Positions 6,441-64,000 of a DNA stretch of 64,000 nt are shown in pieces. Source of the DNA: Crossaster papposus (Eukaryota; Echinodermata; Asteroidea; Velatida; Solasteridae); NCBI GenBank assembly GCA_037893245.1, contig JBAIAA010000783.1:1240001-1304000 (forward strand). Direction: 5' to 3'. Under the pieces are notes generated by a model, which was given only the letters and a program-made list of their open reading frames with translations, was not told the DNA's origin and did no database searches. The position numbers and the translations under genes were made by a program. Position 1 is the stretch's first letter; each line of letters starts with the position of its first letter.

Positions 6441-6880
6441 CTTTTATTTGGGAACCGTTTTTTGGGGTGGGGATTTTGGCCAGTTATTAAGGTTGGTCTA
6501 TTTACTGGCCTGCAACCGGGCAGGTAGTGTTATAAGCTCTTTGTATCTGGTTTCCAGACCAAATTATTCTGACTATTTTGTGTATGCGATAGTGAGTGAA
6601 TGTCGAATAAGTAACTGGCCAGTGATGAGTGAATGTCGAATAAGTAACTGGCTACTTATTGAATATCGAATGTCGAACGAGGAATAAGTAACCAACTCAA
6701 GTTCACACCGGTTAATGACTCCTAGTCCCACTAGTGTGCCCCCGGTATGCGATATACAGGGTCACACATCGGCACACGTACGCTAAAATTGGTTGAAAAC
6801 TTTGCTTTTTCGTGCGCACTCTGTGCGAGGAATTGTGGAATCCGCAACTACTGGGTGTATTCTCTAATCTCTCAGCTATT

Positions 6881-10646: not shown

Positions 10647-10680
10647 ACATTTGGAATTCCTGACATTTGAATATAATATA

Positions 10681-11449
10681 ATGGCATCTTTAAAACTTGA
10701 TGAGGATTCACCCAGCTCTCCCAAATCCAATGGCCTTGAGACAACTGTAGACGGGGAACAAAGGTTAGAGTGTGGAGACCCAGGCCAGTATGATCAATGC
10801 GCGACTGTTGATGATGACGTTACCCCGGATGAGGCTGAGAGTCGGGGTTTTAGAATTGGTTCCTGGCATCCCCATTGCCTTCAGATATTGGTAAACCCTG
10901 TTATGTTTGTTGCTCTACTCTGCTTCTTTACCATCTGTGATGCCTTCTTTAGTGGAATCCAAGTTGCCCTTCTTACTACTTTGGAGACCAGGTATGGTCT
11001 CTCTGCTTACCAGATTGGAATGGTAGTCACAATCAATAAAATTGGTACAATGGTTGGCCTGCCAGTAGCAGCATACCTAGGTGGAAGACCCAATACACAT
11101 CGACCACGTTGGATAGCAGGTAGTGCCTTCCTGATGGCTTTTGGAATGATTGCCACATGTATCCCACAGTTTATATTTAAGCCATATCAATACCATCACA
11201 GTCAGTTTAAAGATGTGGCTGGCAGCGTTCTTTCAGATTATCATGACCTGTGCAGTACCAGCACTAATCATTCAGCAACATCGTCACATGCAGATTGCCC
11301 CGAAAGCACTTCATTGGATGATGAGGCAGCCTACATTATAATTCTGATAAGTCAGTTTGTGGCAGGGGTTGGTTATGCACCAGCACGGCCATTGGGTATA
11401 TCCTATATTGATGACAATGTCAAACCAAACAGGGCTGGATTTTACCTTG
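10681..11449 (+). CDS. SLCO: SLCO exon 1 (residues 1-256 and part of 257)
   Basis: The exon starts with ATGGCATCT and ends at TACCTTG before GTAAGT; intron phase 1. It encodes an acidic N-terminus, membrane segments at about 74-92, 112-133, 145-162 and 216-234, and an extracellular loop with a possible N-glycosylation site (Asn-His-Ser near 196). The words ETRYGLSAYQIG and SYIDDNV are family-typical. The open frame runs into the intron to 11583, which is not part of the protein. Confidence 0.92.
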
Positions 11450-14400
11450 GTAAGTTGCCATTGCTATTACCTTTTTGGGTTTATTCCTTGTTGACTTTTA
11501 TAATTTCTGAAGATCGGAAACTGTTGGTTGACCTATTTGCATACAACCTAATAAAGAATATTCATCTCCGAGTTGAAAGGTAGATGTACCGTACTTGTAC
11601 GTTTAGTATACTATTATTTGCAATTAATTAAAATAAATCATTATGATCTGGTATATACATGTACCGGTACCTTACTTGTCTCAAACATCCTGGTAAATTA
11701 CAGCACCTGGGGTGATTTTAAAAAAAGGGAGGATTATCAATTTTTAACGATTGTCGGTGGGCAGTCAATATTTTTAAACACTGCCCCCAATTTTTCAAAT
11801 TTAGTACATGTAAGTTCACATTTTATTTGCATTATTGTTGCACTTCCATGAATGGGTGCAGTAGCCTGGTTCCCTGACCTGATAATTCCCTAACGTCTAA
11901 ATTGCTCTGGGTTTTTTTTTTCTGAAGGAAGTCAAGGAACAAGCCAAGTTTACAAGAACGGCATTCCTTTTCTTTTATTTTTCTATACAAACCATTAAAC
12001 TGTTCAGCGTCAGTACATGTATTTAATCCCTAAACTCTTCCATTTTTCAAAATGACAGCAAAAACAAATTTATAGTGTGTACATGTACTACCGTTAAATA
12101 AAATTAAAAAATTAATATGAAACCCCAAATAGGCCTACCCATTTTCAGACCCTGGAATAAAAGGCGACTATAATGTTTTTAACCCTAACCTTACTAAATC
12201 CTCAAAAATCAATATGTGACCTGCTCCCACAAAACCAGACGTACTAGTACCGGTAAGTGTTTTTGTTGAAAAGTGTTGTTATTTCCATATTTTTATTCCC
12301 ATAGAATCGCGTGTACAGGCAGTCGTATAATAAGGGTGGTTTTGGTACCAAATGAAAGCTGAAGATGTGTACTAAAAATGAAATAACAATATCTCACTTT
12401 AAAAAAACCCACTTATTTATGTCTGGTTTTGTGGGAGTCGGTCACATATGATTTTTCACACACCCGGAGTTAGGGCTAATTAATTAATGAGCATTCTTGC
12501 ACATTAGCAGGGTGAAATTTAGTCAATTAAAGATACAATGTAAGGTCTGTAATAAGTCATGTACCGATACATCATACATGTATTTTGTTTTTTCCTTGTG
12601 TCTTGTTACTTCGCGAGACATTGATGCTTGTGATCACTGATACTGAAGTAGTGTTTCTTTGTTTATTAGTGTTACATGTATTTGGACAGCAACTAAGTTT
12701 ATTTTATTGGTCTTGTCTGATATTGCAGGAATAGTGTCTAGCATGTACGGTATTGGCGTTGTCTTTGGATTTCTAGCCAGCTCAGCAGTTTCCCTGATTT
12801 GGGTTGACTTCTATCGCACCGAAACAACTGTAACCAGGACTGATAGGGCTTGGGTATCTGCCTGGTGGCTGCTATTCATCTTTTTAGCATTTATTCTTGT
12901 GCTGTCAGGGATTCCGTTTCTTGGTTATCCAAAACAGCTGCCAAGGAAATGGAAAATGGATAATAACGATGACAGTGCAGTACCGGATGACAGCAAGAAC
13001 TATGAACCCAAGTTTAAGACGCTGAAACTTGGTGGGGTCGAAGGTAATGTAAAATGGTGTAAACTGGTGATAATGCTGTAATACGCATGATCATTTGTTA
13101 TCTTTCCAACCTCACATGGGCTTTTCAAGAGTAATTAGCTGGTTGTGTAAAGAATGTGTAATCATGGTGATTGTTTTTGTCTTCTCTTATTTCAGCTATG
13201 TTGAATTCTCTGTTTAGGGTTCTCACTAACGGATCCTACTTGCTGGCATCATTTGCATTCGTAACCTCCGGATTGATCACAGGCCTACTTAGTTTCTTTC
13301 CAAAATACATTGAGACACAGTTTGGCCTGCCAACTAGTCTTGTCAATATTCTTGTAGGTATGTTTAGGGATTGGGTGGCATGTTACAATGAGTTTCTGAC
13401 ATTGTCAATAAACCCAAATTGTATTATTTCTCTAAGCCTGTTTCACACTAGACAAATCTCAGGGTTGACGTAGGGTTTAAAACGTGCGGCATTTCACACT
13501 AGAACATTTTAAACCCTGCGCCAACGCAGAGATTTATTTCAACCCAGGTTGAATTCTGTACTCAACCCTGCTCCATACTAGATGTTAAACTTGTGTTGAA
13601 ACTCTCACCCTAGATCCCAAATGGCAGTCACTTATCAAAGTGTGAAATGACACAGCTAGGTTGAACTCGGGGTTGAAAAATCAAAAACTCACCCAGGTTG
13701 GCAGCGGGTTTGCCCGGGTTTAGAGGCTGTAGTGTGAAAATTCACATTGCCCCAAGATATACATGTATTGTTAAATGCAGTGGCTCATTGCAATTTGTAC
13801 ACCAGAAATGTAAGTTGCTTCAAAACGTGTATAAAACACTTGCACGACCATTGACTTCTCCCACAAAACCAGACATACAGTAGGTATTTTTTTGGAAAAG
13901 TGAGATATTTATATTTAAAGGTAGGATGCACCATTTGCACATATCGAAAATATTTACTTCCGAATTATTAAGAAATATCTTACTCATTTGAAAGTAAATA
14001 ATAATTCTATAGGCATCCAGCAAAATGATTGCGCTAGATATTCTGTAATTATTCTGACAAATAGAATTATATAAAGAAAAATTCGCGATCGTCGGACAGC
14101 GATCTCGAAAAAACACAAACGGTTGACGCCGGCTGATAACAAACGCTTTTTCTCGTGCTTTTTCCCGCCATCTATGATTGTAAAACTTCAGACAGGTCAG
14201 TTAAGCGATATTTACTATAAAATACTACCCCCCCCCCCCCCCACTTCTACCCATTCACGATAATTCAAGCAATTGCCAATGGTGTATCCTACCTTTAACT
14301 CATTTGAATCCCATAGAATCGCGTGTACACGTATGAAAGCTAAAGATGTGTACTAAATGGAAATAACAATATCTCACTTAAAAAAAACAACAACACTTAT

Positions 14401-42896: not shown

Positions 42897-42956
<60 letters not shown>
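42897..42956. repeat. G homopolymer of nearly 60 bases after the 18S end
   Basis: A run of G directly follows the 18S 3' end and GCCGAGCCAGACTTGCC. All glycine/proline frames through it are artefacts. Confidence 0.95.
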
Positions 42957-45439: not shown

Positions 45440-46160
45440 ACTATCTAAGTTCCGATAATTTGTTTGTGAAGGGTAGATTAAAATCACATTGTGGTTTCTG
45501 GGAGCATATTGGTGCTCCAGGTATGATCTTGTCCATTATCAATACAATGAAGGTTTAAAGTTATGGTTTATTGAAGATCACCCGCCTATGAACCTCCGTA
45601 ACAACGTTTCAGCTTTGTGTAATTCATCCTTTGTTACAGAATCTATTTTAGAATTATTGGCTTCTGGTAGAATCAAGGAGAGCTGTTTACCATCTTATGT
45701 TACTAGTCCACTCGCTGTTGTTTGTCAAACTTCCAACAAGGAACGCTTGATTCTGGATTTGAGTCAATTAACTGAACAAGTTTGTGCAAAAGAACCATTT
45801 CAAAATAGACGATTGGAAAATCGCATTACCATACTTCAGTTCGGATGCTCTTTTGTTTTCATTTGATTTAAAATCTGGATCTCATCACGTTGACAATGCC
45901 CAACCAGTATTTGGGCTTTTCATGGCACATTGATGGCATTCGGCGATATTTTCAGTTCACAGTTCTCCATTTTGGCCTTACCTCTGCCCCCTGGATCTTC
46001 ACTAAAATTATGAAACCTTTGGTTTCACATTGGCGCTCTTGTGGTATGTTTTTTGCCCTTTATCTAGATGATGGTTTTATAGTTGTACCCCAATTGAATT
46101 TGTCCCCAGATCAGCATCGCATTGGCCTCGCAGGTTTCTGCCCATGTTAGAGACCTAATG
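45440..46160 (+). pseudogene. DIRS-like reverse transcriptase, frameshifted
   Basis: Entry FWEHIGAPGMILSIIN (about 45500-45546), then another frame with PPMNLRNNVSALCNSSFVTE (about 45584) and LILDLSQLTEQ, then a third frame from about 45890 with YLGFSWHIDGIRRYFQFTVL, FGLTSAPWIFTKIM and the catalytic YLDD at about 46059-46070. Two frame changes prevent a product. Confidence 0.8.
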
Positions 46161-46229
46161 AAAGCCGGTTTCATTTACAACATAAGCAAAAGTGTTTGAA
46201 AGCCTACCCATTCCATTGTTTGGCTCGGT

Positions 46230-46690
46230 ATGACTTGGGATTCCAGTTTGGGTACTCTCAAAGTTTTAGATCGTAGAATACTTCAGATAGCCATACTTTT
46301 TCTGCTAAATTCCCCTTCTTGCTCATTCAGGGAACTTCATTCCTTTGTAGGTCAGATTATTTCTTTGTCGCCAGTATTAGGCAACGTTACCAGGCTCATG
46401 ACCCGGTTTGTCAAACCCGCATAGCTCAAGTCTATGACGAAAATCGAGTGATTATCATCGATGATCAGTGCCTAAACGAGATTCACTTTTGGCGTGATAA
46501 TGTCTCCCATCTTAATATTCGGCACGTTTTCCTTTCCCCAAGGGTAAACAAAGTTACTATATTTCCAGATGCAAGTTCAGTAGGATTGGGTGCCATTATA
46601 TGCAACAAAAATCACGTTGCACATACAAATTTGACTCCTGAAAAAAGGGCACAGTGTTCAACCTGGCGTTAACTTGAAGCTATTTCGTTT
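46230..46690 (+). pseudogene. DIRS-like RNase H fragment
   Basis: Contains MTWDSSLGTLKVLDRR and FRELHSFVGQIISLSPVLGN, then in the next frame FWRDNVSHLN, FPDASSVGLGAII and HTNLTPEKRAQCSTWR. The reading stops at TAA (46671-46673), just before the first 5' hairpin of the repeat complex. Confidence 0.75.
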
Positions 46691-46692
46691 TT

Positions 46693-47949
46693 AGCTGTTT
46701 CGGCATTTCAGCCGAAACAGCTTTTGTTTTCGTTAAAGTTTTTTTTTTTTTTTTCCCTTTTTTTCTTCCGTTTCAGACTCCTCTCCATAGAGTTTGTACA
46801 CGTTTTTTCTTCAGCCAATACACTTTGACACTTTAGAAAACCCGATCGACTTAAGACTTGGTATACACTTAGACTACCACCCACAGATGGTCCTTGAACA
46901 AAATCGTCACGATTTCGTCATTCATGGTCACGTGACGTCACTTTAAAGGTGCGATTTTTTCCCATAGGTTTTGTACACGTTTTTCTTCAGACTATTGACT
47001 TTGACACTTTGGTAAATCCGATCGACTTGAGACTTGGCATACACTTAGACCACCATCCCTAGGAGGGCCAGGAGAAAAATCGTCATGATGACGTCATCGT
47101 GGGTCTTGTGACCTCACATTAAAGGTGCAGTTTTTGAGACCCTATATCTCTGAAAGTACAGGACCGATTGGGGTCAAACTTGGTATACAAGTATTCCACG
47201 ATGTGTTATAGACGAAAATTAAGATGACATCATGATGACATAATCGGGTGTCATGTGACGTTAAATTAAAGGTGCAGTTTTTCCCATAGGATTTGTACAC
47301 ATTTTTGTTCAATCAATATATTTTGGGCACTTTGGTAAATCCGATCGACTTGAGATTTGGCACATACTTAGACCAGCATATGTAGATGGTCCTAGAAGAA
47401 ATTCGACACAATTGCGTCATTCAAGGTCACGTGACGTCACGTTAAAGGTTCAATTTTTCCCCCATAGGTTTTGTACACGTTTTCCTTAGACTATTGACTT
47501 TGACATTTTCGTAAATTTGATCGACTTGAGACTTAGCACACACCTCAACCACCATCTCCGGCAGGGCCCAGAGGAAAATCGTCATGATGACGTCATCATG
47601 GGTCATGTGACGTCACATTAAAGGTTCAATTTTTAAGACCCTCTATCTCTGGAAGTACATGCCTGATTAGGGCAAAACTTGGTATGCAAGTATTCCATGA
47701 TGTGTTATAGACGCAAATTAAGATGACGTCATGATGACATCACCGGGTGTCATCTGACGTCACATTAAAGGTGCAGTTTTTCCCCATAGGATTTGTACAC
47801 GTTGTTTTTTAACCAATATATCTTTGGCACTTTGGTAAATCCGATCGACTTTAAACTTGGCACACACTTAGACCACCACACACACACATAATGAAAGACA
47901 TTTTAGACACCCGAAACAGCTCTGTGTTTGTCCACAAACACATGTCTAG
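46693..47949 (+). mobile_element. Repeat element A1 (HINE-like), complete
   Basis: 5' hairpin AGCTGTTTCGGC/GCCGAAACAGCT at 46693-46722, then TTTTGTTTTCGTTAAAG and a T-tract. The core is about 150-175-bp repeats. Near the 3' end CGAAACAGCT (47912-47921) repeats the hairpin's second half, followed by hairpin TGTGTTTGTCCACAAACACA (47923-47942) and CTAG (47946-47949), then T. Sub-terminal inverted repeats, a 3' hairpin and an internal tandem core match the plan described for non-autonomous Helentrons. No protein is encoded. Confidence 0.7.
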
Positions 47950-48429
47950 TTTTTCTTTTTAGCTGTTTCGGCAATTCAGCCGAAACAGCTTTTGTTTTCG
48001 TTAAAGTTTTTTTTTTTTTTTTTTTTGCTTTTTCGCAAATTTTGCGAAAAAGCCTTTGTTTCTGTTCTGATTTTTTTTTTTCTTCTTCTTCTTCTTCTTC
48101 TTCTTCTTTTTTTCTTTTAGTAACCTAAACTCCATAGACTTTGTACACGTTTTTTCTGCCAGTCACTTTTAATAGAAAACAAAGTCGTATTTCCATAAAA
48201 CTTAACCCAGGTGAAGACCCTATAGTGAACTCGTGTCTCGCCGAAAAACGTAATGGTGACGTCATCAGGGGTCACGTGACGTCATCTTAAAGGTGTAATT
48301 GATTTAATCTTTGAAAATCAATAACAAATCAACCGCAAAAGACCGAAACTTAATTTTTGTGGCAATAGATAGAATAATCCAGGATCTTAATTTTATCTCG
48401 TGTGCGTGAAATCACGTGACCCTTCCTTC

Positions 48430-48448
48430 CGGTCTAAACCGGAAGTGC
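48430..48448. promoter_or_regulatory. Palindromic ETS-like site pair in B-type units
   Basis: CTTCCGGTCTAAACCGGAAG places two CCGGAAG (ETS-type) words head to head. It recurs near 49469, 50054, 51836, 52876, 53333, 54578, 58117 and 58977. The conserved palindrome may instead be a structural part of the element. Confidence 0.4.
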
Positions 48449-48552
48449 CTCATAATTTGAAAGTGAAAAATGATATGAACTTACTTTCAACGATGTTAGT
48501 GTCTGGCTACAATGTATTTTTCAAAAAAAATATTGGTGACGTCATAACATGT

Positions 48553-48573
48553 TATAGCGCCCTCTAGCGGCAG
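48553..48573 (-). promoter_or_regulatory. CTCF-like motif in B-type units (first of eight)
   Basis: The minus strand reads CTGCCGCTAGAGGGCGCTAT, close to the CTCF core (CC-N-N-N-AG-N-GGGCGC). The same sequence recurs at 49593, 50180, 51963, 53001, 54708, 58243 and 59104 with few changes. Binding is not shown by sequence alone. Confidence 0.4.
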
Positions 48574-51266
48574 TTAACAAAATTGTTAAAATGAATAATC
48601 TGTTGATGTGTGTGGCGAAGTTTGCTGAAATCACTTTATAACCGGTGTATTTAATCAGCTTCATGGTAGGAACAAGTTGACGGGAAGAAAAAATTATGAC
48701 GTCACCAGACCGGAAGTTAGAATGAAAAGACTCCTTTTCCTTTGAAAATTCCTAAAAAATTAATCCTGACAGATACAATCTTGATTTTTGCTCTAAAGGT
48801 TAATGTAAAAGTAGTTCTCGAACTTCCCTGTGTTTTGGGGCAAAAAACGAACTTGAACATACCCTGCGGCACCCTTGAAATGTAATCGATTTGGCCTAGG
48901 TGCAAAAAGCATTGACCCCTTACGTACGTGTGTATGGCACACGTATAATATACATGCTAGTACATGTACGTATACACTGATAGTGTATTATGTATTGAGC
49001 GAATGTATCACCACTGACATCGTTCGTGCAAGCACATGTACGCTTACCCAAGAGGACACTAGCCGCCAACCTGTGAAACAGGATGACGTCAACAAATTGC
49101 CCATGGGGAAGGGCGCCGCGTACGACAGGTAGGTAAACACGCTTTCGGCTACGCAGAATCCAACCCCGTAGACTTTGTAAACGTTGCTTGCACAATTCAA
49201 AGCACTTTTAACGGAAAAACAAAGTCGTATTCCCATAAACTTGACCCAGGTGAAGACCCAATAGTGAACTCCAGTCTCGCTGACAGACACCACGAGGAAG
49301 ACGTCATCAGGGCCACGTGACCTTATCTTAAAGGTGCAATTGATTTAATCTTTAAAAATAAATAACAAATCAACCACAAAAGACCGAAACTTGATTTGTG
49401 TGGCAATAGATAGAATAATCCAGAATCTTCATTTTATCTCGTGTGCTAAAATCACGTGACCCTTCCTTCCGGTCCAAACCGGAAGTGCCTCATAATTTGA
49501 AAGTGAAAAATGATATGAACTTACTTTCAACGATGTTAGTTTCTGGCTAGAATAAACTTTTCCAAAAAAAATCAGGCGACGTCATCATATGTTATAGCGC
49601 CCTCTAGCGGCAGGTTAAAAAATGGTTAAAATGAATAATCTGTTGATGTGTGTGGCGAAGTTTGCTGAAACCACTTTATAACCGGTGTATATAATCAGCT
49701 TCATGCTTAGACCATATTGGGAAGGAGAAATATTTATGACGTCACCAAACCGGAAGTTACAATGAAAAATCCTTTAAACCTTAAACAATCGCTTAAAAAT
49801 CACCCGCTATAGATATAATCCAGATTTTTGCATCAGATAGCAAAGTAAAGACAGCTCTCGAGCTTTATGTTAATTACGTCACGATGACGTCATCAAATGT
49901 CAGATTACAAGCAACCAAATATTTATAGATTTAATCTTTGAAAATCAATATAAAATCAACTGTAAGAGATATGATTTAGATTTTTAAGGGAATTGATAGA
50001 TTAATCCATGGTCTTCATAATTTGTATTACATGCAAAAAAACCTGACCCTTCCTTCCGGTCCAAACCGGAAGTGCATTATAATTTAAAAGTGGAAAACGA
50101 TGTGAACTTACTTTCAACGATGTTAGGCGCTGGCTAGGTTGTAAGTAACAAACAAGTTAACGGTGACTTCTTAAAATGTTATAGCGCCCTCTAGCGGCAT
50201 GTTGACAAATGTTACGTCATATTACGATTATATTTGAATTATTACGTTTTTCGACATTTAAGTCATATCTCAGCAACGGAACGTGCTAACATAACATACG
50301 TTTGTATTGTTAGGTGATAGATAGTTGCACAAAAAGTTCACAAACGTGTGACGTCATCGTTTTAATCAGTTTGGATGCATTTTAATCTGTTTAAATTAAC
50401 TTAAATTCGTTTTCGATGATTTTAAATTATTTTGATGGTATAAAAGTTCAATTTTTGAAAAAATTAATGTAAAAAATTGCGAAAGCGAAAAAGCCCTATG
50501 TTCTGTTCCTCGAACAGACGTAGTTCTAGTTTTTTCCTTTTTTTCTTTTTTTTCTTCCGTTTCAGACTCCTCTCCATAGGGTTTGTACACGTTTTTTCTT
50601 CAGCCAATACACTTTGACACTTTGGTAATTCCGATCGACTTGAGACTTGGCATACATTTAGACAACCACCCAAAGACGGTCCTAGAAGAAATTTGTCACG
50701 ATTACGTCATTCGTGGTCACGTGACGTCACGTTAAAGGTGCAATTTTTCCCCATAGGATTTGTACACGTTTTTCTTCAGACTATTGACTTTGACACTTTG
50801 GTAAATCCGACCGACTTGAAACTTGGCATACACTTAGAACGCCACCCCCAGATGTTCCACGAAGAAATTCGGCACGATTGCGTCTTTCAAGGTCACGTGA
50901 CGTCACGTTAAAGGTTCAATTTTTCCTCCATAGGTTTTGTACACGTTTTTCCTTAGACTATTGACTTTGACACTTTAGTAAATTTCATCGACTTGAGACT
51001 TGGCACACACTTAGACCACCATCCACAGACAGTTCTAGAAGAAATTCGGTACGATTACGTCATTCAAGGTCACGGGCGTCACATTAAAGGTTTAATTTTC
51101 CCCTATAGGTTTTGTACACGTTTTTCTTTAGACTATTGACTTGGACACTTTAGTAAATCTGATCGACTTGAGACTTGGCACACACCAAAGACCATCAACA
51201 CATATTGAAAGACACTCGAAACAGCTCTGTGTTTGTCCACAAACACATGTCTAGTTTTTTCTTTTT

Positions 51267-51317
51267 AGCTGTTTCGGCAATTCAGCCGAAACAGCTTTTG
51301 TTTTCGTTAAAGTTTTT
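51267..51317 (+). mobile_element. 5' end of element A3
   Basis: 5' hairpin (51267-51296) plus TTTTGTTTTCGTTAAAG, then interrupted by the A4 hairpin. Its body probably resumes at 60190. Confidence 0.7.
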
Positions 51318-51392
51318 AGCTGTTTCGATTTTTCACCGAAACAGCTTTTGTTTTCGTTAAAGTTGTTTTTTTTTTTTTTTTTTTTTTTGGGG
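51318..51392 (+). mobile_element. 5' end of element A4
   Basis: Hairpin AGCTGTTTCG/CGAAACAGCT (51318-51346, different loop) and a T-tract of about 28 T that ends at the C1 hairpin. Its body probably resumes at 59469. Confidence 0.65.
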
Positions 51393-51446
51393 GGGTTTTT
51401 CGCTTAAAAGCGAAAAACCCTTTCTTTTCGTTCTGTTTGTTTTATT
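51393..51446 (+). mobile_element. 5' end of element C1
   Basis: A third hairpin type, GGGTTTTTCGC/GCGAAAAACCC with loop TTAAAA (51393-51420), followed by TTTCTTTTCGTTCTGTTTG. It is related to but distinct from B. Its body probably resumes at 54249. Confidence 0.6.
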
Positions 51447-54248
51447 GGCTTTTTCGCAAATTTTGCGAAAAAGCCTTTGTTTCTGTTCTGATTTTTTTTT
51501 TTCTTCTTCTTCTTTTTTCTTTTCTTTTAGTAACCTAAACCCCATAGACTTTGTACACGTTTTTTCTGCCCGTCACTTTTAATAGAAAACAAAGTCGTAT
51601 TTACATAAAACTTAACCCAGGTGAAGACCCTATAGTGAACTCGTGTCTCGCAGAAATACGTCGTGGTGACGTCATCAGGGGTCACGTGACGTCATCTTAA
51701 AGGTGTAATTGATTTAATCTTTGAAATTCAATAACAAATCAACCGCAAAAGACCGAAACTAAATTTTTGTGGCAATAGATAGAATAATCCATGATCTTAA
51801 TTTTATCTCGTGTGCGTGAAATCACGTGACCCTTCCTTCCGGTCTAAACCGGAAGTGCCTCATAATTTAAAAGTGAAAAATGATATGAACTTACTTTCAA
51901 CGATGTTAGTGTCTGGCTACAATGTATTTTTCAAAAAAAATATTGGTGACGTCATAACATGTTATAGCGCCCTCTAGCGGCAGTTTGAAAAATTGTTAAA
52001 ATGAATAATCTGTTGATGTGTGTGGCGAAGTTTGCTGAAATCACTTTATAACCGGTGTATTTAATCAGCTTCATGCTAGGAACAAGGTGACGGGAAGAAA
52101 AAATTATGACGTCACCAGACCGGAAGTTAGAATGAAAAGACTCCTTTTCCTTTGAAAATTCCAAAAAAATTAAACCTGACAGATACAATCTTGATTTTTG
52201 TTCTAAAGGTTAATGTAAAAGTAGTTCTCGAACTTCCCTGTATTTTGGGGCAAAAAACGAACTTGAACATACCCTGCGGCACCCTTGAAATGTAATCGTT
52301 TTGGCCTAGGTGCAAAAAGCATTGACCCCTTACGTGTGCATGGCACACGTATAATATACATGCTAGTACATGTACGTATACACTGATAGTGTATTATGCA
52401 TTGAGCGAATGTATCACCACTGACATCGTTCGTGCAAGCACATGTACGCTCACCCAAGCGGACACTAGCCGCCAACCTGTGAAACAAGATGACGTCATCA
52501 AATTGCCCATGGGGAAGGGCGCCGCGTACGACAGGTAGGTAAACACGCTTTCGGCTACGCAGAATCCAACCCCGTAGACTTTGTAAACGTTGCTTGCACA
52601 ATTCAAAGCACTTTTAACGGAAAAACAAAGTCGTATTTCCATAAACTCGACCCAGGTGAAGACCCAATAGTGAACTCCAGTCTCGCCGACAGACACCACG
52701 AGGAAGACGTCATCAGGCCCACGTGACCTTATCTTAAAGGTGCAATTGATTTAATCTTTGAAAATCAATAAAACATCAACCGCAAAAGACCGAAACTTGA
52801 ATTTTGTGGCAATTAATAGAAAAAAATCCAGGATCTTCATTTTATCTCGTGTGCGTGAAATCACGTGGCCCTTCCTTCCGGTCTAAACCGGAAGTGCCTC
52901 ATAATTTGAAAGTGAAAAATGATATGAACTTACTTTCAACGATGTTATTGTCTGGCTAGAATAAACTTTTCAAAAAAATTCCGGCGACGTCATAACATGT
53001 TATAGCGCCCTCTAGCGGCAGGTTGAAAATGATTTCTATATTTAATCTTTTAAAATCTTTATAAAATCAACTATGAAAGATCTGAGTTCGAATTTCACGC
53101 GATTTTATAGCATAATCGAGCGCCTTCATATTTGTGAACTCATGTCTCGCAGAAGGACGCCATTATGACGTCATCAGGGGTCACGTGACGTCATCTTAAA
53201 GGTGCAATAGATTTAATTTTTGAAAATCAATAAATCAACAGCAAATGCCCTGAACTTGAAGTTTGTGGCGATTGATAGAATAATTCAGGATCTTTATTTT
53301 ATCGCCCGGGCGTAAAATCACTTGGCCCTTCCTTCCGGTCCAAACCGGAAGTGCAATACAACAAGCAGCGGCCTAGAGCTGAATATCTTAAAGCCGTGCA
53401 CCAATTTTCCAGAGGAGCACGTACTGAATACAGGAACTTGTGTGTAGTAATTATACATTTCAAATGGGGGTCGGGGTAGTACCCAGGGGCGCACATATAT
53501 CTCCAACGGGAAGGAAGGACGTCCTCCGTAGTTACGCCACCACTACAGCTATATACCAAGGGGTGTCAATCATATACTTTCATTAAAACAATTTATTTCA
53601 AAAAAATTCCAATTTATTTCCAATAAGTTTTTGAGCTGTACGCCTATTTGTATCCTTTATTTGATCCTTGGACGTGTGTGACTTCGTAATGACGTCATCA
53701 AAAACATAACTTTAAAAAATAAACAAAAGAATAGGTCCGATCGTCATGAAACTTGAGAAGTTAGATACGATCATTGGTACGCAAAACCGAAGTGACGTAT
53801 TACTGACGTTATCAATTCATTTTTAATGAATTTTTCTTTCTTTCTAATTTTATTCCACTTAAAAAATTCACACTTCCTTTGATCAGATTGACTGCAGACT
53901 TGGCACAGACCAATATCATAGTGACAATATGTGAATTGACACGTATTGTCGTGGTGACGTCATCAGGGGGCATGTGACGTCATGAACTTTGATTTTGTTT
54001 ACATGCGTTTATATTCGTTTTATTTTATTTTCAATTCTTTAAAAATGTTTTTAATAGTTTAAATTCGTTCAAAATCATTTAAATTTGATTTAATCTGTTT
54101 AAATTCATTTTAATCTGTTTCAATTCAGTTAAATTCGTTTTGAATGTTTTTTAAGGTATAATAGTTTAATTTCTTGAAAACTAAATCTAAACAAAATGTA
54201 CATGCGAAAAAGCCCTATGTTCTGTTCCTCGAACAGACGTAGTTCTAG
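51447..54248 (+). mobile_element. Repeat element B2, complete
   Basis: 5' hairpin GGCTTTTTCGCAAA/TTTGCGAAAAAGCC (51447-51475), CTT repeats, about 1-kb units starting near 51541 and 52571, then GCGAAAAAGCC (54204-54214), hairpin TCTGTTCCTCGAACAGA (54221-54237), CTAG (54245-54248). Its first 1.5 kb is nearly identical to B1. The 53350-53560 part is unlike B1. Confidence 0.75.
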
Positions 54249-55259
54249 TTTCTTCTTCTTCTTCTTGTTCTTCCGTCAATAAATCGCATAGACTTTGTAC
54301 ACGTTTCATTCTGCCAGTCACTTTTGTCATTAAACAGACTTCAATGTCATTGAAACTTTGCACATACTCGGAACTCATACTGAGCTAGTGCCTAAAACTT
54401 GGATGTCATCATGACGTCACCACGTGACATGTGACGTCATCTTAAAGTTTTAATAATTTAATCTTTGAAAATCAATACAAAATCAACCGCGAAAGACCGA
54501 AACTAGATGTTTGTGGGAATCGATAGAATAATTAAGGGTCTTCATTTTATCTCGTGTGCGTAAAATCACGTGACCCTTCCTTCCGGTCCAAACCGGAAGT
54601 GGCTTATAATTTAAAAGTGGAAAATGATTTGAACTTACTTTCAACGATGTTAGTCTCTAGCTAGGCTGCGCTCTACAAAAAAGTGATCGGTGACATCATA
54701 AATTGTTTTAGCGCCCTCTAGCGGCAGGTTGAAAAATGTTTGAAATGAACAATCTGTTGATGTGTGTGGCGAAGTTTGTTCAAATCACTTTATAACTGAT
54801 GTATATAATCAGCTTCATGATAGGAACAGGTTGACGGAAAGAAAAAAATATGACGTCACCAGACCGGAAGTTATAATGAAATTACCTCTTTTCCTTTAAA
54901 AATTCCTAAAAAATTAACCCAGACAGATATAATCTTGTTTTTTGCTCTAAAGGTTAATGTAAAAGTACTTCTCAAACTTCCCTGTGTTTTGTAGCAAAAG
55001 GCGAACTTGGACATACCCTGAGACACCCTTGAAATTTCATGTTTTATGTCCTTGATTGCACGGCGCCAGTATACGTGTACATAGTATTGAGCGTACTTGC
55101 ACGTACGATGTCAGTACGCTCCCCACATTGTACAATAGAGAAGGGAAGGCGGGACACTGGTATCCATTTGTACGGTGACATGTGAAACACGAGAGTCATC
55201 AACATAGGCCACGAGGAAGGGCGCCGCTTATGGCAGGTAGGTAAACGTGCCTTCGGCAA

Positions 55260-57840
55260 CGCAGAACTACTACGCGTGAATTATACACGTACCACAGTCA
55301 GTCCGCAGCGCACGCGTTAATAAGGTCATATCCCGAACTTTATTTGCAGGGCCGGCGTCGCAAATCGGCCACGAGATTTACGCGAGTAATTGCAGGAGTT
55401 CGACCGCTTTGTTTTCACGAGCTACACGTTGCAAACGAAGCAGTAATTTTCCAAGATGGCGTGGTAAGTGGAAAGCGAACGATTTTCTGAATCGAATGAT
55501 ATAAAATATGACGAGATTCAGTGTGTTTTGGGCAGAATTTTGTTCACTCGAAGTTAGAGTATAATTTCAAGAAATGTTTTTGTCGTGTGTTTAGTTTCTG
55601 CGCCCTGACTGGACTAACAAATATTACCAAAAATGATCACTACACATTGATAAAAGAAGCAATGATCTTTCGTTTGATATACAATTTAGCCTGTGGCGAC
55701 ATTTTTGTCATGTATTTTGCGACGATTTTCGTGCGCGCGATTTCAACTTTTTTGGCCATGTCTTTCGGCTTTACATACATGTACGCAGAACATGTATTTC
55801 ATTATGCACACAAGCACATGTGTACATGTGCTGGATATGCACTAGATGCGATGGTGATTGCACAGTAGCCTTATTTATATGATAAAGTTAGGTTTCTTTC
55901 ATGTATAAAAACGACTTAGGCCTTTGTTTTTGTTCAAAATTATAACAAATTGTTTAATAATAATACATTTAGTTACTACTATTATTGTGCTAAACTTCAT
56001 AGTTCCTATTTCTGTCTTCCAATATGTTTCTTATACTAGGTAGCACTCGTCCACCACCATGGCCATGCCCACCACCATGCCCACCGCAGCCATCGCAGCC
56101 ATTGCCAGCATGTCAGGAGCCTCTACAGAAGGCCAAAGGCAACTCTTGTCCTTGGATATTCTCTCACAAAGTATCTCAAAGAGAACATCACTACTAAAGT
56201 TGGTTGATTTGCAGGTAGTGACTCATCGCGGTACTACAATTTCTGACCTTAGAAAGTATCTGCTTCATCAGCATGACATCTGCTCTTATTCCTCCATGGC
56301 CTGACATTGTATTTGTAATGATTCATGTTGGGACAAATGATCTAGAGTTGGGTTTCCAAAGAAGTGTTGAAAATAGTTGAAGATTTAAATGTACTGGTGG
56401 ATATGCAGCACGTGCTTTGTACATGTAGATTTAAAGGTTTTGTATTTTAGTTTTAAATAATATACATGACTTTGTGTCAGTGTTGTGCAAACGCAATGCA
56501 GCTAAAACAGATCAAAACCGAGTCTGGCCGAGTCGGGTCAGTTTGTCAAAATAATAATGCCCCAAACTATGCCAACAAAGTTTTGAGCTACAATGTAAAT
56601 TTGACACAAACGGCATATAACTTTATTAATGCAGATTGTATTATTTCTATTATCAGTGATATAATTTATGTGCATTAACATTTATATTAGCAAAATTTAT
56701 GTCTTATTTAAAATATTTTGTTTTTGCAATGTTAGAAGCGGGCATACATTGTAATTTAATATTTACAATAACTTAATGCCAAACAAACTATGCCAAAAAC
56801 ATCAAGCAAAGATAAAACAAGCTTTATTTACTTTTATAATAAATCTCAATGGTTTGCACATTGAACATTATGCCAAAGATGAATAAGTTTTAACAATTTC
56901 AGGGTTTAATTTAACAATTTTATTCAAGCCATATAACATCAACAGGGTATGTTAATGTAAGCGATAAAATTCAAGTTTCAGATAAAAAGTGCAGTTTCTT
57001 TTATAAACCAACCTCACAATACAGATATAAATTGTTGTAAACATTTGTATTTATCAATGTTATTGTTATCAATACATTTTAAACAACGACTTCATTTGTC
57101 GCTTGTTTTTTGTTTATTTGGCTGTATACATTGTATTATGCAGGCAATAATATTATTTTTTAATCAGTCCACTGTTAAAAAGAAAAAAACCCTGAATAGC
57201 AGATAAATCCTTTTCGCTCGAGCTTACAATTAAAAAAATACACAAAAAACAACTGCGTATTGAAATGTGCATGAACTACACGTTACCACGAAGCCTTTTT
57301 CAATGACGTCATTTTCGACCAATGAGGGCGCAGGAAGACTATGGACTGTCATGGCGGGATGTTCCGTTTGTTAATTTATTGAGAAGGTTATAATTTTCTG
57401 CGCCCTGACTGGACTAAGTTAAATCAACCCCAAAACTACAGTTTTGTGATAGAATATGAAATTATCTTTAACATCAGTGTAAAATTGGGTTGTGGCCGCT
57501 GCCAGAAGATGGACAAAATTCGTCTTTTTTTAAAGGTCAATTTGTTGGTTCGGGATCTTTTTTTACGTTATAAATTTCACCCTCTAAATGTCATATAATT
57601 TCCAATCTGATTTGATAATATAACAAAATGTTTCCTTATCCAAAAGAAAATATACATAATATTGACAGCCAGTGAATAAAACGGATGTTTCGGACCAAAT
57701 TCCAGGCGTTGTCGCCAGCTCATTAAGTATTCAAAAACGAGGTCACGCACAAAGTGCCATGCATAAATCGCACATAAAAGAAACGGCTTTTCAGTGCGCT
57801 GCGGACTGACTGTACCATATAATAGATGTACGCGAACTTT
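55260..57840. mobile_element. 2.5-kb foreign insert in the B/C body
   Basis: Unlike its surroundings. TTCTGCGCCCTGACTGGACTAA occurs near both ends (within 55600-55620 and 57398-57420), and CTACACGTT...CGAAGC words also occur near both ends. These could be remnants of direct terminal repeats, but the intervening flanks do not align. It contains the SGNH-like fragment. Type unknown; the outer limits are approximate. Confidence 0.4.
56059..56378 (+). pseudogene. SGNH/GDSL-like domain fragment, frameshifted
   Basis: From ATG 56059: an Ala/Met/Pro-rich start, then LLKLVDLQVVTHRGTTISDLRKYL. After a one-base shift near 56279, PPWPDIVFVMIHVGTNDLEL follows and a stop is reached at about 56378. G-x-T/S-I-x-D-L and HVGTNDL resemble SGNH-hydrolase blocks II and III, which are often found in retroelement-linked ORFs. 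The block I serine (GDS) is not seen. Function is not claimed. Confidence 0.45.
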
Positions 57841-58290
57841 TGCACAAGTACTTTTAACAGAAAACAAATTGGTATTCCCATCAAACTTAACCTCCGTAAA
57901 TACTCTATAGTGCACTCGTGCCTTGCGGACAGACGTTGTGATGACGTTAACATGGGTCACGTGACGTCGTTTTAAACGTGCAATAGATTTAATGTTTAAA
58001 AATTAATAAAAAAATCAACCGCGTATGATCGGAACTTGAAGTTTGTGGGAATTGATATAATATTAAATCCATGATCTTCATTTTATCTCGTGTGCGTGAA
58101 ATCCCGTGACCCTTCTTTCCGGTCGAAACCGGAAGTGGCTTATAATTTAAAAGTGGACCATAATGTGAACTTAGTTTCAACGATGTTAGTCTCTGGCTAG
58201 TAGTGCTTTTCACAAAAAAATACCGGTAACACCATAACCTGTTACAGCGCCCTCTAGCGGCAGTTTGAAAACTGTTAACAATGAATAACC

Positions 58291-58566
58291 TGGGCCCAAT
58301 TTCATAGCGCTGCTAAGCACACGCTTTTCTGCTAACCGAGCCTCCGTCTATTTCATGGGGACCGTAAGCAGTAAGCACAGCAAAAGGCACGCTTAACCTA
58401 GCGGAAAAATTTGCTTAAATCAGTGACGTAACAATAGAATCTCCATGCGCGCGCAAACGTTAGCACAAAAACGCCGTGAAATAGCGCTTAAGGTTAGCAA
58501 ATTTTTCTGCTAAAGTTAGCACAACTTTTCCGCTAACTGATAAGCAGCGCTATGAAATTGGGCCCA
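58291..58566. mobile_element. 276-bp palindromic MITE in a B-type unit
   Basis: TGGGCCCAATTTCATAGCGC at the left is mirrored by GCGCTATGAAATTGGGCCCA at the right, followed inward by TGCTAAGCA / TGATAAGCAGC. It interrupts a B unit between AATGAATAACC and GTTGATTTG, as comparison with 48592-48610 shows. AT/GC-balanced, no ORF. Confidence 0.9.
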
Positions 58567-59468
58567 GTTGATTTGTTTTGCGAAGTTTGCTCAAATCACT
58601 GTATAACTGGTTTATATAATCAACATCTTGTTAGGAACAAGTTGGCGAAGACAAACAAATATGACGTCACTAGACCGAAAGTTACAATGAAAAGACCTTT
58701 AAACCTTAAATAATTGCTGAAAAATCAACCGCGATAGATATAATTCTTTTTTTTGCTTTAAATAGACAAGTTCAGACAGCTCTCGAGCTGTATGTTAATG
58801 ACGTCACGATGACGTCATCAAGTATCAGATTGCAAGCAACTAATGATTTGTAGATTTAATCTTTGAAAATCAATATCAAATCAAATGTAACAGATCTGAT
58901 TTAGATTTTAACGGGAATTGATAGAATAATCCAGGGTCTTCATATTCGTATTACATGCAAAATGACTTGACCCTTCCTTCCGGTCCAAACCGGAAGTGCC
59001 TTATAATTTGAAAGTTGAAAATGATATTAATTTACTTTCAACGATGATAGTCTCTAGGTAGCCTGCACCTACAAACAAAGTTACCGGTGACGTCATAAAT
59101 TGTTATAACGCCCTCTAGTGGCAGGTTGAAAAATGTTTAAAATGAATAATCAGTTCATTTTCGTGGAGATCAGTTTGCTCAAATCGCTTTATAATTGGTA
59201 TTTATAATCAGCATCTTGTTAGGAACAAGTTGGCGGATAAAAACAAAATAATATGACGTCACTAGACCGGAAATTACAATTAAAAGACCTTTAAACATTT
59301 TTAAAAATTAACCGCGAGAGATATAATCCAATTAATAATTTAAAATTTGCAGTTTTGAAAAAATTAAATACAGAAATTTATTAAATGAAATCATAAATGT
59401 TATGAACAATACAAAAAAAAAATGCGAAAAAGCCATATGCTCTGTTCCTTGAACAGACATATCTCTAG

Positions 59469-60189
59469 TTTTTTTTTTTTTTCCACTTTCAGACTTTTCC
59501 CCATAGGATTTGTACACGTTTTTTCAGCCAATACACTTTGACACTTTGGTAAATCCGATGGACTTGAGACTTGGCATACATTTAGACAACCACCCAAAGA
59601 CGGTCCTAGAAGAAATTTGTCACGATTACGTCATTCGTGGTCACGTGACGTCACGTTAAAGGTGCAAATTTTCCCCATAGGTTTTGTACACGTTTTTCTT
59701 AAGACTATTGTCTTTGACACTTCGGTAAATCCGACCGACTTGAAACTTGGCATACACTTAGAACACCACCCCCAGATGTTTCTGAAAGAAAATTGGCACG
59801 ATTGCGTCATTTAAGGTCACGTGACGTCACATTAAAGGTTCACATTGTTCTCCCATTGGTTTTGTACACGTTTTTCTTTAGACTATTGACTTTGACACTT
59901 TAGTAAATCCGATTGACCTGAGACTTGGCACACACTTAGACCACCATCCACAGACGGCTCTAAAAGAAATTTGGCACGATTACGTCATTCAAGGTCACGG
60001 GGCGTCACGTTAAAGTTTCATTTTTCCCCATAGATTTTGTACACGTTTTTCTTTAGACTATTGACTTTGACACTTTAGTAAATCTGATCGACTTGAGACT
60101 TGGCACACACAAAAGACCACCACACACATATTAAAAGTAATTTTAGACACTCGAAACAGCTCTGTGTTTGTCCACAAACACATGTCTAG
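59469..60189 (+). mobile_element. A-type body and 3' end, probably of element A4
   Basis: T-tract, TTTCAGACTTTTCCCCATAGG, core units, CGAAACAGCT (60152-60161), hairpin (60163-60182), CTAG (60186-60189). No 5' hairpin; bracket order pairs it with 51318. Confidence 0.6.
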
Positions 60190-61208
60190 TTTTTTTGGTT
60201 TTTTTTTCCTCTTTCAGACTTTTCCCCATAGGATTTGTACACGTTTTTTCTGGCATAGCACTTTGACACTTTGGTAAATCCGATCGACTTGAGACTTGGC
60301 ATACATTTAGACAACCACCCAAGGACGGTCCTAGAAGAAATTCGTCGCGATTCCGTCATTCAAGGTCACGTGACGTCATGTTAAAGGTACAATTTTCCCC
60401 ATAGGTTTGGTACACGTTTTTCTTCAGACTATTGACTTTGACACTTTGGTATATCCGACCGACTTGAAACTTGGCATACACTTAGAACACCACCCACAGA
60501 TGGCTCTTGAAGAAAATTCGGTACGATTGCGTCATTTAAGGTCACGTGACGTGACGTTAAAGGTGCAATTTTTTTCCCCATAGGGTTTGTACACGTTTTT
60601 CTTCAGACTATGGACTTTGACACATTCGTAAATCCGATCGACTTGAGACTTGGCATACACTTAGACCAGCATCCCTAGGAGGGCAAGGAGAAAAATCGTC
60701 ACGATGACGTCATCTTGGGTCATGTGACGTCATATTAAAGGTGCAGTGTTTAAGACCCTCTGTCTCCGTAGGTACAGGTGTGATTGGGGTCAAACTTGGT
60801 ATGCATGTATTCCGGGATGTGTTATAGACGAAAATTAAGGTGACATCATGATGACGTCATCGTGGGTCATGTGACGTCACATTAAAGGTTCAGTTTTTAA
60901 GACCTTATATCTCTGAAAGTACAGGCCCGATTGGTGTCAATCTTGGTATACAGGTATTCCGGGACGTGTTATAGACGAAAATAAAGGTGACGCCATGGTG
61001 ACGTCATCAGGTGTCATGTGCTGTTAAATTAAAGGTGTAGTTTCCCCCATAGGATTTGCACACGTTTTTTTCAACCAATATATATTTGGCACTTTGGTAA
61101 ATCCGATCGACTTCAGACTTGGTACACACATAGACGACCACCCACATAATTCAAAGTCATTTTAGACACGCGAAACATCTCTGTGTTTGTCCACAAACAC
61201 ATTTCTAG
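60190..61208 (+). mobile_element. A-type body and 3' end, probably of element A3
   Basis: T-rich start, CTTTCAGACTTTTCCCCATAGG, mixed 175-bp and 146-bp core units, CGAAACATCT (61171-61180, one mismatch), hairpin (61182-61201), CTAG (61205-61208). Confidence 0.6.
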
Positions 61209-63108
61209 TTTTTGTTTCAGACTTTTCTCCATAGAGTTTGTACACAGTTTTCTTCAGCCAATACACTTTGACACTTCTGTAAATCCGATCGTCTTGAGAC
61301 TTGGCATATACTTAGACCACTACCCACAGATGGTCCTAGAAGAAATTCGTAACGATTACGTCATTCATGGTCACGTGACGTCACGTTAAAGGTTCAATTT
61401 TTCCCCATAGGTTTAGTACACGTTTTTCTTCAGACTATTGACTTTGACACTTTAGTAAATCCGACCGACTTGAAACTTGGCATACACTTAGAACACCACA
61501 CCCAGATGTTCCTGAAAGAAATTGGGCGCGATTGCGTCATTTAAGGTCACGTGACGTCACGTTAAAGGTTCAATTTTTCCCCCATAGGTTTTGTACACGT
61601 TTTTCTTTAGACTATTGACTTTGACACTTTCGTAAATTTGATGACTTGCGACTTGGCACACATCTCGACCACAATCCCCAGGAGGGCCAAGGGAAATTCG
61701 TCATGATGACGTCATCGTGGGTCATGTGACTTAACATTAAAGGTGCAGTTTTTATTTTATTGTTTTCAGACTTTTTCCCATAGGGTTTGTACACGTTTTT
61801 TGTTCGGACAATACACTTTGACACTTTGGTAAATCCGATCGACTTGAGCCTTGGCATACACTTAGACCACCACCCACAGATGATCCTAGAAGAATTTCGT
61901 CACGATTACGTCATTCGTGGTCATGTGACGTCACGTTAAAGGTGCAATTTTTTCCCATAGGATTTGTACACGTTTTTCTTCAAAATATTGAATTTGACAC
62001 TTCTGTAAATTCGATCGACTTGAGACTTAGCACAGACCTCGACCGCTATCCTTAGGAGGGCCAAGAGAAAACTAATCAATATGACGTCATCGCGGGTCAT
62101 GTGACGTCACATTAAAGGTGTAGTTTTTAAGACCCTCTAACTCTGAAAGTACAAGTCCGGTTGGGGTCAAACTTGGTTTGCAAGTATTAGAGGATGTGTT
62201 ATAGACAAAAATTAAGATGACGTAATTATGACATCATCGGGTGTCATGTGACGTCACATTAAAGGTTCAGTTTTCTCCATAGGTTTTGTACACGTTTTTC
62301 TTTAGACTATTGAATTTGACAATTTGGTAAATCCGATCGACTTGAGACTTAGCACACACCTCGACCACCATACCCAGGAGGGCCAAGGGGAAAATCGTCA
62401 GGATGACGTCATCGTGGGTCATGTGACGTCACATTAAAGGGGCAGATTTTAGGACCCTCTATCTCTGGAAGTACATGTCTGATTGGGGCCAAACGTGGTA
62501 TGCAAGTATTCCAGAATGTGTTATAGACGAAAATTAAGTTGACGTCATGATGACGTCATCAGGTGTCACGTGACGTCACATTAAAGGTGTAGTTTTCCCC
62601 ATAGGTTTTGTACACGTTTTCCTTCAGACTATTGACTTTGACACTTTGGTAAATTCACTCGACTCCAGACTTCGCATACACTTAGAACACCACCCACAGA
62701 TGGTTCTGGAGGAAATTTGGCACGATTGCGTAATTCAAGGTCACGTGACATGACGTTAAAGGTTCAATTTCCCCCCCATAGGTTTTGTACACGTTTTTCT
62801 TTAGACTATTGACTTTGACACTTTCGTAAATTTGATCGACTTGATACCTAGCACACACTTCGACCACCATCCACAGGAGGGTCAAGAGAAAACTCGTGAT
62901 GATGACGTCATCGTGGGTCATGTGACGTCACATTAAACGTTCAGTTTTTTTAATAGCATTTGCACACGTTTTTTTCAAGCAATATATTTGGCACTTTGGT
63001 AAATCCGATCGATTTCAGACTTGATACACACTAGACCACCACCCACATATTGAAAGTCATTTCAGACATTCGAAACAGCTCTGTGTTTGTCCACAAACAC
63101 ATGTCTAG
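61209..63108 (+). mobile_element. A-type body and 3' end without a visible partner
   Basis: TTTTGTTTCAGACTTTTCTCC, many core units, CGAAACAGCT (63071-63080), hairpin (63082-63101), CTAG (63105-63108). All 5' hairpins in the window are already accounted for. Confidence 0.6.
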
Positions 63109-64000
63109 TTTCTTTCTTTTTTTCTTTTTTTCCCTCTGTTTCAGACTTCTCTCCAAAGGGTTTGTACGTTTTTTGTTCGGACAATACACTTTGGCACTTT
63201 GTTAAATCCGATCGACTTCAGACTTGGCCTACGTGTAGACCACCACCCACAGATGATCCTAAAAGAAATTCGTAATGATTACGTCATTCGTGGTCACGTG
63301 ACGTCACGTTAAAGGTTCAATTTTTCCCCATAGGTTTTGTACACGTTTTCATTCAGACTATTGACTTTGACAATATGTTTAATACGATTGACTCGAGACT
63401 TGGTAAACACACCTCAACCACCATCCTCAGGAGGGCCAAGAGGAAAATTGTCATGATGACGTCATCGGGGGTCATGTGACGTCACATTAAAGGTGCAGTT
63501 TTTAGGACCCTCTATCTCTGGAAGTACAAGTCCGATTGGGGTCAAACTTGGTATTTATGTATTCCATGATGAGTTATAGACGAAAATTAAGATGACATTA
63601 TGATGACGTCATCGGGTGTCATGTGACGTCACATTAAAGGTGAGTATTTAGGACACTCTATCTCTGAAAGTACATGTCCGATTGGGGTCAAACTTGGTAT
63701 ACAGATATTCCGGGATGTGTTATAGACGAAAATCAGGGTAACGTCATGATGACATCATCGTGGGTCATGTGACGTCACATTAAAGGTGTAGTTTTTAAGA
63801 CTATATCTCTGGAAGTACAAGTCCAATTAGTGTCAAACTTGGTATTCAGGTATTCCAGGATGTGTTATAGACGAAAATTAAGTTGACGTCATGATGACGT
63901 CGTCAGGTGTCATGTGACGTCACATTAAAGGTGTAGTTTTCTCCATAGGTTTTGTACACGTTTTTCTTTAGACTATTGAATTTGACAATTTGGTAAATCC
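63109..64000 (+). mobile_element. A-type body running off the window
   Basis: T-rich start, CTGTTTCAGACTTCTCTCC, then core units of both lengths. The 3' end is beyond the window. Confidence 0.6.

Follow-up and report, generated by a model that had tools for sequence, protein, structure and literature searches.

Nested stacking of two element families with one terminal plan, probably non-autonomous Helentron derivatives, in the genome of Crossaster papposus

We analysed a 64,000-nucleotide stretch of the genome of the sea star Crossaster papposus (contig JBAIAA010000783.1 of assembly GCA_037893245.1, positions 1,240,001 to 1,304,000 of the forward strand; hereafter, the window), in which a first-pass annotation made from the letters alone had placed a 17-kb complex of elements resembling non-autonomous Helentron derivatives (HINEs) at 46693-64000. 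The complex is real, but it extends about 6.7 kb further, and its units are nested and not merely side by side. Reading of positions 46000-64000 and pattern scans confirmed two families, A and B, which keep the same order of parts despite their different sequence: a palindromic 5' hairpin, a T-rich tract, a repeat-bearing body, the second half of the hairpin, a short unrelated hairpin, CTAG and then T. After a run of T's, an A element starts with AGCTGTTTCG..-loop-..CGAAACAGCT, TTTTGTTTTCGTTAAAG, the T-tract and TTTCAGAC.., and it closes with CGAAACAGCT-CTGTGTTTGTCCACAAACACA-TGTCTAG before T. A B element starts with GGCTTTTTCGC-loop-GCGAAAAAGCC, TTTGTTTCTGTTCTG and a T/TTC tract, and closes with GCGAAAAAGCC, a hairpin and CTAG before T. 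Both families thus carry subterminal inverted repeats (AGCTGTTTCG / CGAAACAGCT in A, GGCTTTTTCGC / GCGAAAAAGCC in B), the 5' copy of which is palindromic.

The ends on which the annotation was built were recovered by pattern searches. Using the second half of the A hairpin followed by TGTGTTTGTCCACAAACACA and ..CTAG, with up to 3 mismatches, we found five A 3' ends (47913-47949, 51218-51254, 60153-60189, 61172-61208 and 63072-63108) and none in 100 dinucleotide shuffles; three B 3' ends (50485-50529, 54204-54248 and 59424-59468) were found, again with none in shuffles. Seven 5' hairpins are present, four of type A (46693, 47961, 51267 and 51318), two of type B (48027 and 51447) and one, called C, at 51393. 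Every hairpin and every 3' end of the complex lies on the plus strand, and a run of at least three T's follows all eight 3' ends. When folded as DNA, four of the seven 5' hairpins were each more stable than all 200 shuffles (z -4.6 to -7.4); three of the eight 3' ends gave z values of -2.6, -1.6 and -3.3, with 6, 15 and 1 of 200 shuffles equal or better. The 3' palindrome occurs in all eight 3' ends, although the search patterns themselves include it. It lies 7 bases (A) or 11 bases (B) from the element end, and the 3' subterminal repeat lies 28 bp (A) or 34 bp (B) from it. The bodies contain tandem repeats, with periods of 145-179 bp among others.

The 17 kb is a nested stack that can be written A1; A2(B1); A3(A4(C(B2))), with all parts on the plus strand. 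A1 (46693-47949) is a complete A element with its 5' hairpin at 46693-46722, a T-tract at 46739-46772 just inside this hairpin, a body, and the 3' subterminal repeat, hairpin and CTAG. The hairpin module of A2 and the first part of its T-tract (47961-48026) are followed by the complete element B1 (48027-50529), after which A2 resumes with the remaining T-tract, body and 3' end (50530-51254). Next come four stacked 5' modules. A3 (51267-51317) is the outermost; A4 (module and T-tract, 51318-51388) lies within the A3 tract, the B-like module C (GGGTTTTTCGC..GCGAAAAACCC, 51393-51446) within the A4 tract, and the complete element B2 (51447-54248), whose first 1.6 kb match B1 at 95-97% identity, within the T-rich tract of C. 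The remaining parts are a body with a B-type 3' end that closes C (54249-59468, its longer matches 74-84% identical to B1 and B2, with inserts of 2.5 kb and 275 bp), the T-tract, body and 3' end that close A4 (59469-60189, 91% identical to the A2 body) and those that close A3 (60190-61208). Two A bodies without a 5' hairpin end the series, one with a 3' end (61209-63108) and one (63109-64000) that continues into locus L009, where its 3' end lies at position 774.

The annotation had counted two or three related families, and two were borne out. The C hairpin differs from that of B by a change on both arms (GGC..GCC to GGG..CCC), and no C-type 3' end occurs among the 10 B-type 3' ends of the window and loci L009-L038. 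With no matching 3' end in evidence, C is best taken as a B variant rather than as a family. Among the same 10 ends the outer stem reads CTATG..CGTAG in five and ATATG..CATAT in five, a two-sided change that fits a hairpin kept as such, though it may go back to one single event.

In the window, the inner elements B1, A4, C and B2 all sit in the T-tract just inside the 5' hairpin of the outer element, and the 5' modules of the large stack, in the order A, A, C (B-type) and B, are closed by 3' ends in the mirror order B, B, A, A. B1 splits the A2 hairpin from the A2 body, and its flanks, once joined, align with A1 across hairpin, tract and body start, so that the A1 tract is an unoccupied paralogue of the B1 site. 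The proposal that termini be determined from empty sites could be carried out exactly at another locus. At L019 an A complex lies inside a B body, with AATT before it and CTAG followed by TTCATTTT at its far side, and in L015 this B sequence is continuous and has only one TT at the site. The inserted A element extends from AGCTG to CTAG with TT on each side and no longer target duplication; the extra TT may be owned by the element or be a 2-bp duplication, two cases that are indistinguishable here as in published HINEs. Neither copies with clear target-site duplications and different termini nor a lack of copies outside arrays, either of which would have spoken against the annotation, appeared.

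The T-rich tract lies about 16 bases downstream of the element's own 5' hairpin and holds its longest T run (16 in A1, 20 in A2, 11 in B1 and 11 in B2). In A1, B1 and B2 it contains 7-13% of all TT steps and, for TTTTT steps, 41-54%, and a preference for long T runs would therefore largely explain the landing place. As a separate matter, we considered that the A end with B1 and the A end with B2 are copies of one duplicated block; this is less likely, since B1 and B2 are 96.6% identical over 1.6 kb and the adjoining A ends 83.7% over 178 columns.

Beyond position 64000, A-type sequence continues for about 6.7 kb, judged by eye, to about L009 6690 or about 70.7 kb in window terms. The two bodies that start at 61209 and 63109 without a 5' hairpin lie in a region of recent tandem duplication, in which 62081-64025 and 63749-65691 are 98.0% identical and further repeats 94-98%; tandem duplications of A bodies span 62081-64025 and L009 1-5700 at offsets of 731 to 5,233. 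Because of this duplication, we infer that the hairpin-less bodies could be products of unequal exchange or of the loss of stacked 5' modules.

Two pieces in the body that closes C have no counterpart at their sites in B1 or B2. The larger, of about 2.5 kb (55267-57826), contains a 20-bp perfect inverted repeat (55294-55313 / 57794-57813) with TACCA on both outer sides, overlapping the outermost repeat base, and resembles a DNA transposon insertion or a piece of captured DNA. The smaller, of about 275 bp (58291-58566), has inverted ends TGGGCCCAATTTCATAGCGCTG and resembles an insertion of the miniature inverted-repeat transposable element kind, for which B1 and B2 would provide the paralogous empty site.

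To follow the annotation's suggestion of collecting copies by their termini, we searched the assembly (1.02 Gb). This gave 519 + 518 exact A 5' hairpins with one loop, 3,898 + 3,598 = 7,496 exact A 3' ends and, with a pattern containing three free letters, 1,204 + 1,021 = 2,225 B 3' ends, and the reversed-pattern controls gave 0 in each case. Searches for the ends in IMG/VR, from which the window's own genome was possibly excluded, returned 0 contigs each. Modules were then counted in the window and 20 of 38 loci (L009-L028, 10 kb each), three of them (L009-L011) being continuations of the window and the remaining 17 picked for carrying an exact A hairpin; 5' hairpins without a T-rich stretch after them were removed before classification. 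Among the 94 five-prime modules, 74 are preceded by part of another element, a 5' module in 48 cases and a 3' end in 26; among the 88 three-prime ends, 78 are followed by a T-tract with a body start (52) or by a 5' module (26). The other 20 and 10 cases include several near-misses of the patterns (for example CTAA or CTA before the T's) and flanks of other sequence. The 5' modules form 26 stacks of 2 to 7, against 20 single modules, and at L002 five consecutive 5' modules border unrelated sequence.

Orientation was compared among the first 100 listed places for each kind of end, where neighbours in one array are not independent. Neighbours less than 20 kb apart share their orientation in 45/45 pairs of A 5' hairpins, 80/80 pairs of A 3' ends and 52/54 pairs of B 3' ends, both discordant pairs being on C17, and A ends are co-oriented with the nearest B end within 20 kb in 68/68 cases. 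At 20-100 kb the values are 11/12, 3/7 and 14/15, and beyond 100 kb they are 10/20, 3/7 and 9/19.

The annotation had seen no Rep-helicase helper in the window, and eight Helentron or Helitron protein pieces likewise found no match there (tblastn, 1e-5); the Pfam scan of window open reading frames covered ten, all outside the complex. In the genome, 150 of 273 candidates were scored and all of them match PF14214, and the larger PF14214 group has open frames of up to 3,470 aa, with at least 3,000 aa in 60 of the 150 listed frames. The pieces at C18 comprise Herpes_teg_N (VTD), OTU, DUF6570 and Helitron_like_N with GSPH, with two in-frame stops between pieces, and contain a Rep motif of Helentron type, with S between G and P (YFYRVEFQQRGSPHTH). 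C1094 provides PHD, Herpes_teg_N, Pif1_2B (Pif1_2B_dom) and Exo_endo_phos, and C553 provides Exo_endo_phos, with no Pfam family in its N-terminal 736 aa. These are the domains of Helentrons. The complete set (Rep motif, PIF1-type helicase and C-terminal apurinic/apyrimidinic endonuclease) is assembled from three copies, none of them read end to end, and the helicase was seen only in C1094, a copy without A or B sequence in the stretches read. From C18:174379 onward (L029), the Helentron frame opens with an extended repeat region of low complexity, which neighbouring frames translate as LRTLRTLR.. or PENPENPEN..; at the same locus, A and B ends occur in L030 about 10 kb past the start of the frame and separated from it by other sequence.

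The annotation had suggested a search for a gene bounded by the same ends. We found Helentron genes whose 5' non-coding region is B-type, and neither a Helentron 3' end nor a partner for A. The C553 locus shows, in this order, a B 5' hairpin (L033 965), a tract and body, together 90% identical to B1 over 1.4 kb, and a Helentron whose frame is on the opposite strand. C206 carries the same sequence from the tract onward (99.4% over 2.4 kb), another B element ending with CTAG at the tract, and the two share sequence to the end of L034. At C424 (L038) a different B-type body reaches the same Helentron joint; its last 475 bp are 73-79% identical to the B bodies of the window and have no match to A1 or to window 1-46000. 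This C424 body crosses the joint at 14 more loci (C544, C429, C145, C381, C890, C1408, C841, C631, C150, C110, C59, C979, C192 and C553:1453447), and at C18 B-type body matches cross it in part, by alignment. The Helentron side of the joint occurs at 18 loci. In 14 of them a scored Rep lies within 15 kb, at a distance of 7-13 kb, on the opposite strand and on the expected side, so that B probably derives from this Helentron. A chance insertion at the C553 joint had first been suggested by other Helentrons that match only beyond the joint; it was rejected because C424 and the further joint loci carry a different B-type body before the same joint.

The loci C259:1493001-1503000 (L031) and C626:162001-172000 (L032), among the best-scoring for PF14214, are canonical Helitrons, 99.6% alike over 9.2 kb, with 1,847 aa, GLPH, PIF1 and no endonuclease family. 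They were dismissed as partners, as no A or B ends occur in the 10 kb of each; two kinds of rolling-circle transposon thus coexist in this genome.

We class A and B as new HINE families, with a tentative link to an autonomous partner. They combine a palindromic 5' subterminal repeat, a 3' palindrome, insertion at TT in T-rich sequence without a longer duplication, no match to Helentron or Helitron coding sequence and internal repeats, which supports the annotation's class assignment. As to a partner, B has its 5' hairpin, tract and body in common with a Helentron at C553, and B-type body adjoins the Helentron at the other joints, but no 3' end was found there; for A no partner was found. The following comparisons draw on parts of the papers cited. 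HINE families of Metaseiulus occidentalis, Culex and Drosophila (Thomas, Vadnagara and Pritham 2014, PMC4067079) likewise have palindromic subterminal repeats of 12-15 bp, 2-4 nt from the 5' end, a 3' palindrome, a T-rich, unmodified target with a variable number of T's and, in some copies, tandem repeats. Unlike them, A and B end in CTAG (5' TT and 3' CTAG being given there, in the part covered, only for the Phytophthora proto-Helentron), place the 3' repeat nearer to the end (28 bp in A and 34 bp in B, against 38-60), and form large nested stacks of one orientation. The FoHeli elements of Fusarium oxysporum (Chellapan et al. 2016, PMC5148889), whose multiple 5' termini are explained by self-insertion, resemble ours in their asymmetric terminal inverted repeats, two subgroups with hairpins at both ends, and tandem copies; the sea star differs in having 3' ends that mirror the 5' stack, and thousands of genomic ends.

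The Pacific oyster Cg_HINE (PMC7492417) has a similar left flank (subterminal inverted repeat, inverted repeat and microsatellite), satellite-like central repeats and a right flank of subterminal repeat and palindrome, but its microsatellite units are 3-8 nt, in contrast to the T- or TTC-tract here; the part of that paper covered holds no mention of nesting in the microsatellite. Drosophila DINE-1 (PMC2374699) shares 13-bp subterminal inverted repeats, a TT target, a microsatellite (GTCY), variable central repeats and a stem-loop near the 3' end whose stem sequence varies between species, whereas its 5' repeat is only partly palindromic and its tract different. The genes resemble Helentrons with VTD and OTU domains (PMC9741609), in which a RepHel with C-terminal endonuclease is combined with tegument-like and OTU protease domains, and differ from them in a frame that opposes the direction of the B-type ends and in open frames of up to 3,470 aa.

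Taken together, the evidence makes it likely that non-autonomous Helentron derivatives of two families with one terminal plan are stacked in this region, having inserted successively into their own T-tracts. In this model a Helentron elsewhere in the genome supplies the Rep/helicase, which would recognise an element by its 5' hairpin and by its 3' subterminal repeat, hairpin and CTAG, peel off or copy one strand, and join it to a T-rich strand at TT, with no longer duplication of the target; a helper of this kind would also move A. The next element would land in the T-tract in the same orientation, leaving the ends and body of the older one whole, and repeated landing would stack 5' hairpins on the left and 3' ends, in reverse order, on the right. 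Unequal exchange between similar bodies would add or remove units, and may explain the right-end bodies without a 5' hairpin.

Several observations weigh against this reading or its link to a partner. The stability of the three folded 3' hairpins is only moderately above that of shuffles, and 17 of the 20 counted loci were selected for an exact A hairpin. Tandem slippage could be another source of stacked 5' modules, and array duplication could account in part for co-orientation, which at 20-100 kb holds for only 3/7 A 3' ends within lists of 100 places. No Helentron 3' end was found in L034, searched to 4.8 kb past the frame start, and an intact B 5' hairpin precedes the Helentron at C553 only. 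C553 and C206 may be one large segmental duplication, because they share sequence up to the end of L034. Four of the 18 joint loci (C544, C424, C553:1454162 and C381) have no Rep among the scored hits. The identity between B and Helentron-linked sequence is 90% over 1.4 kb (B1), and 83% and 73-79% (C424), below the >95% of some published HINE/Helentron pairs (PMC4067079, in part). We found no Helentron partner with A ends. A second Helentron, C1094 (L035, L036), shows neither A nor B sequence in an 8-kb piece on each side; these pieces include 1.2 and 3.2 kb of the frame.

Among other explanations, that the arrays arose mainly by rolling-circle replication past the 3' end, as concatemers, is unlikely. 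Concatemer formation has been named as an alternative for tandem Helitron copies (PMC5148889, in part), and it would fit A1/A2 and A2/A3, which are joined head to tail by linkers that are nearly identical (TTTTT(T)CTTTTT), as well as the 26 of 94 five-prime modules directly after a 3' end. It would, however, repeat one element, and we observe alternating families nested with mirrored ends, the splitting of A2 by B1 between hairpin and body, at a site that is unoccupied in the paralogue A1, and 48 of 94 five-prime modules after another 5' module. The 145-179 bp repeats of the bodies and the recent 1.9-kb tandem duplication (98%) are what satellite DNA shaped by unequal crossing-over, with incidental hairpins, would show; yet the same ends recur across contigs at many places apart from one another, and L019/L015 provide an exact empty site, which leaves this the least probable of the alternatives. 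That ends are more uniform than bodies (65 of 81 A ends identical, bodies about 66-90% in matches of at least 300 bp) is a weak argument, since the collecting pattern already fixes most letters. Only marginally better placed, and still very improbable, are canonical Helitrons with an unusual 5' end. The 3' end does agree with CTRR and a hairpin about 11 bp away (CTAG; 7 bases in A, 11 in B), and canonical genes of 1,847 aa with the GLPH motif exist in the genome, but the 5' end is a palindrome after T's instead of TC, the target is TT in T-rich sequence instead of the junction of A and T, a subterminal inverted repeat is present, and the B-type 5' region is linked to an endonuclease-bearing Helentron.

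For the stack of Helentron derivatives, the element type is known, and the scale and order of stacking are unusual. HINEs and self-insertion with multiple 5' ends are already published, and the self-landing tract may be new: our literature search, which covered few subscription papers, found neither superclusters of one orientation nor a self-insertion preference for the 5' tract described. What sets the stack apart from published HINEs is its scale, its mirrored order and the use of a built-in tract for landing. We propose, tentatively and with rather less than even confidence, that the T-tract beside the 5' hairpin is a landing pad of the element's own, drawing copies of several families in fixed orientation while the host element stays undamaged, so that superclusters with one orientation and bracket order would grow to tens of kilobases, perhaps to more than 100 kb, and could be read as an insertion time series. 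To our knowledge, Helentron insertion and its strand preference have been little tested; with thousands of exact ends, long Rep frames and ordered stacks, target choice, strand specificity and hairpin roles become readable from sequence. Insertion in a built-in tract followed by unequal exchange would also suggest a route from transposons to satellite-like arrays. Tandem Helitrons reportedly occur in plant centromeres.

Outside the complex, two frames at 10576-13078 match the Organic Anion Transporter Polypeptide family (PF03137, 2.6e-40 and 9.8e-20) and are probably exons of a host gene. A retroelement remnant on the minus strand (470-931) has an RNase H-like domain of reverse transcriptases (PF17917, 1.7e-05). 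The open frame at 46277-46669, directly before A1 and ending ..HTNLTPEKRAQCSTWR, was assigned no Pfam family; presumably it is similar to the RNase H part of a DIRS-type element. A run of 60 G's lies at 42897-42956, with further G runs of 30-53 at 2293, 4535, 23870 and 43134, and a tandem array with a period of 429 (and about 208) and 4.2 copies occupies 4667-6443.

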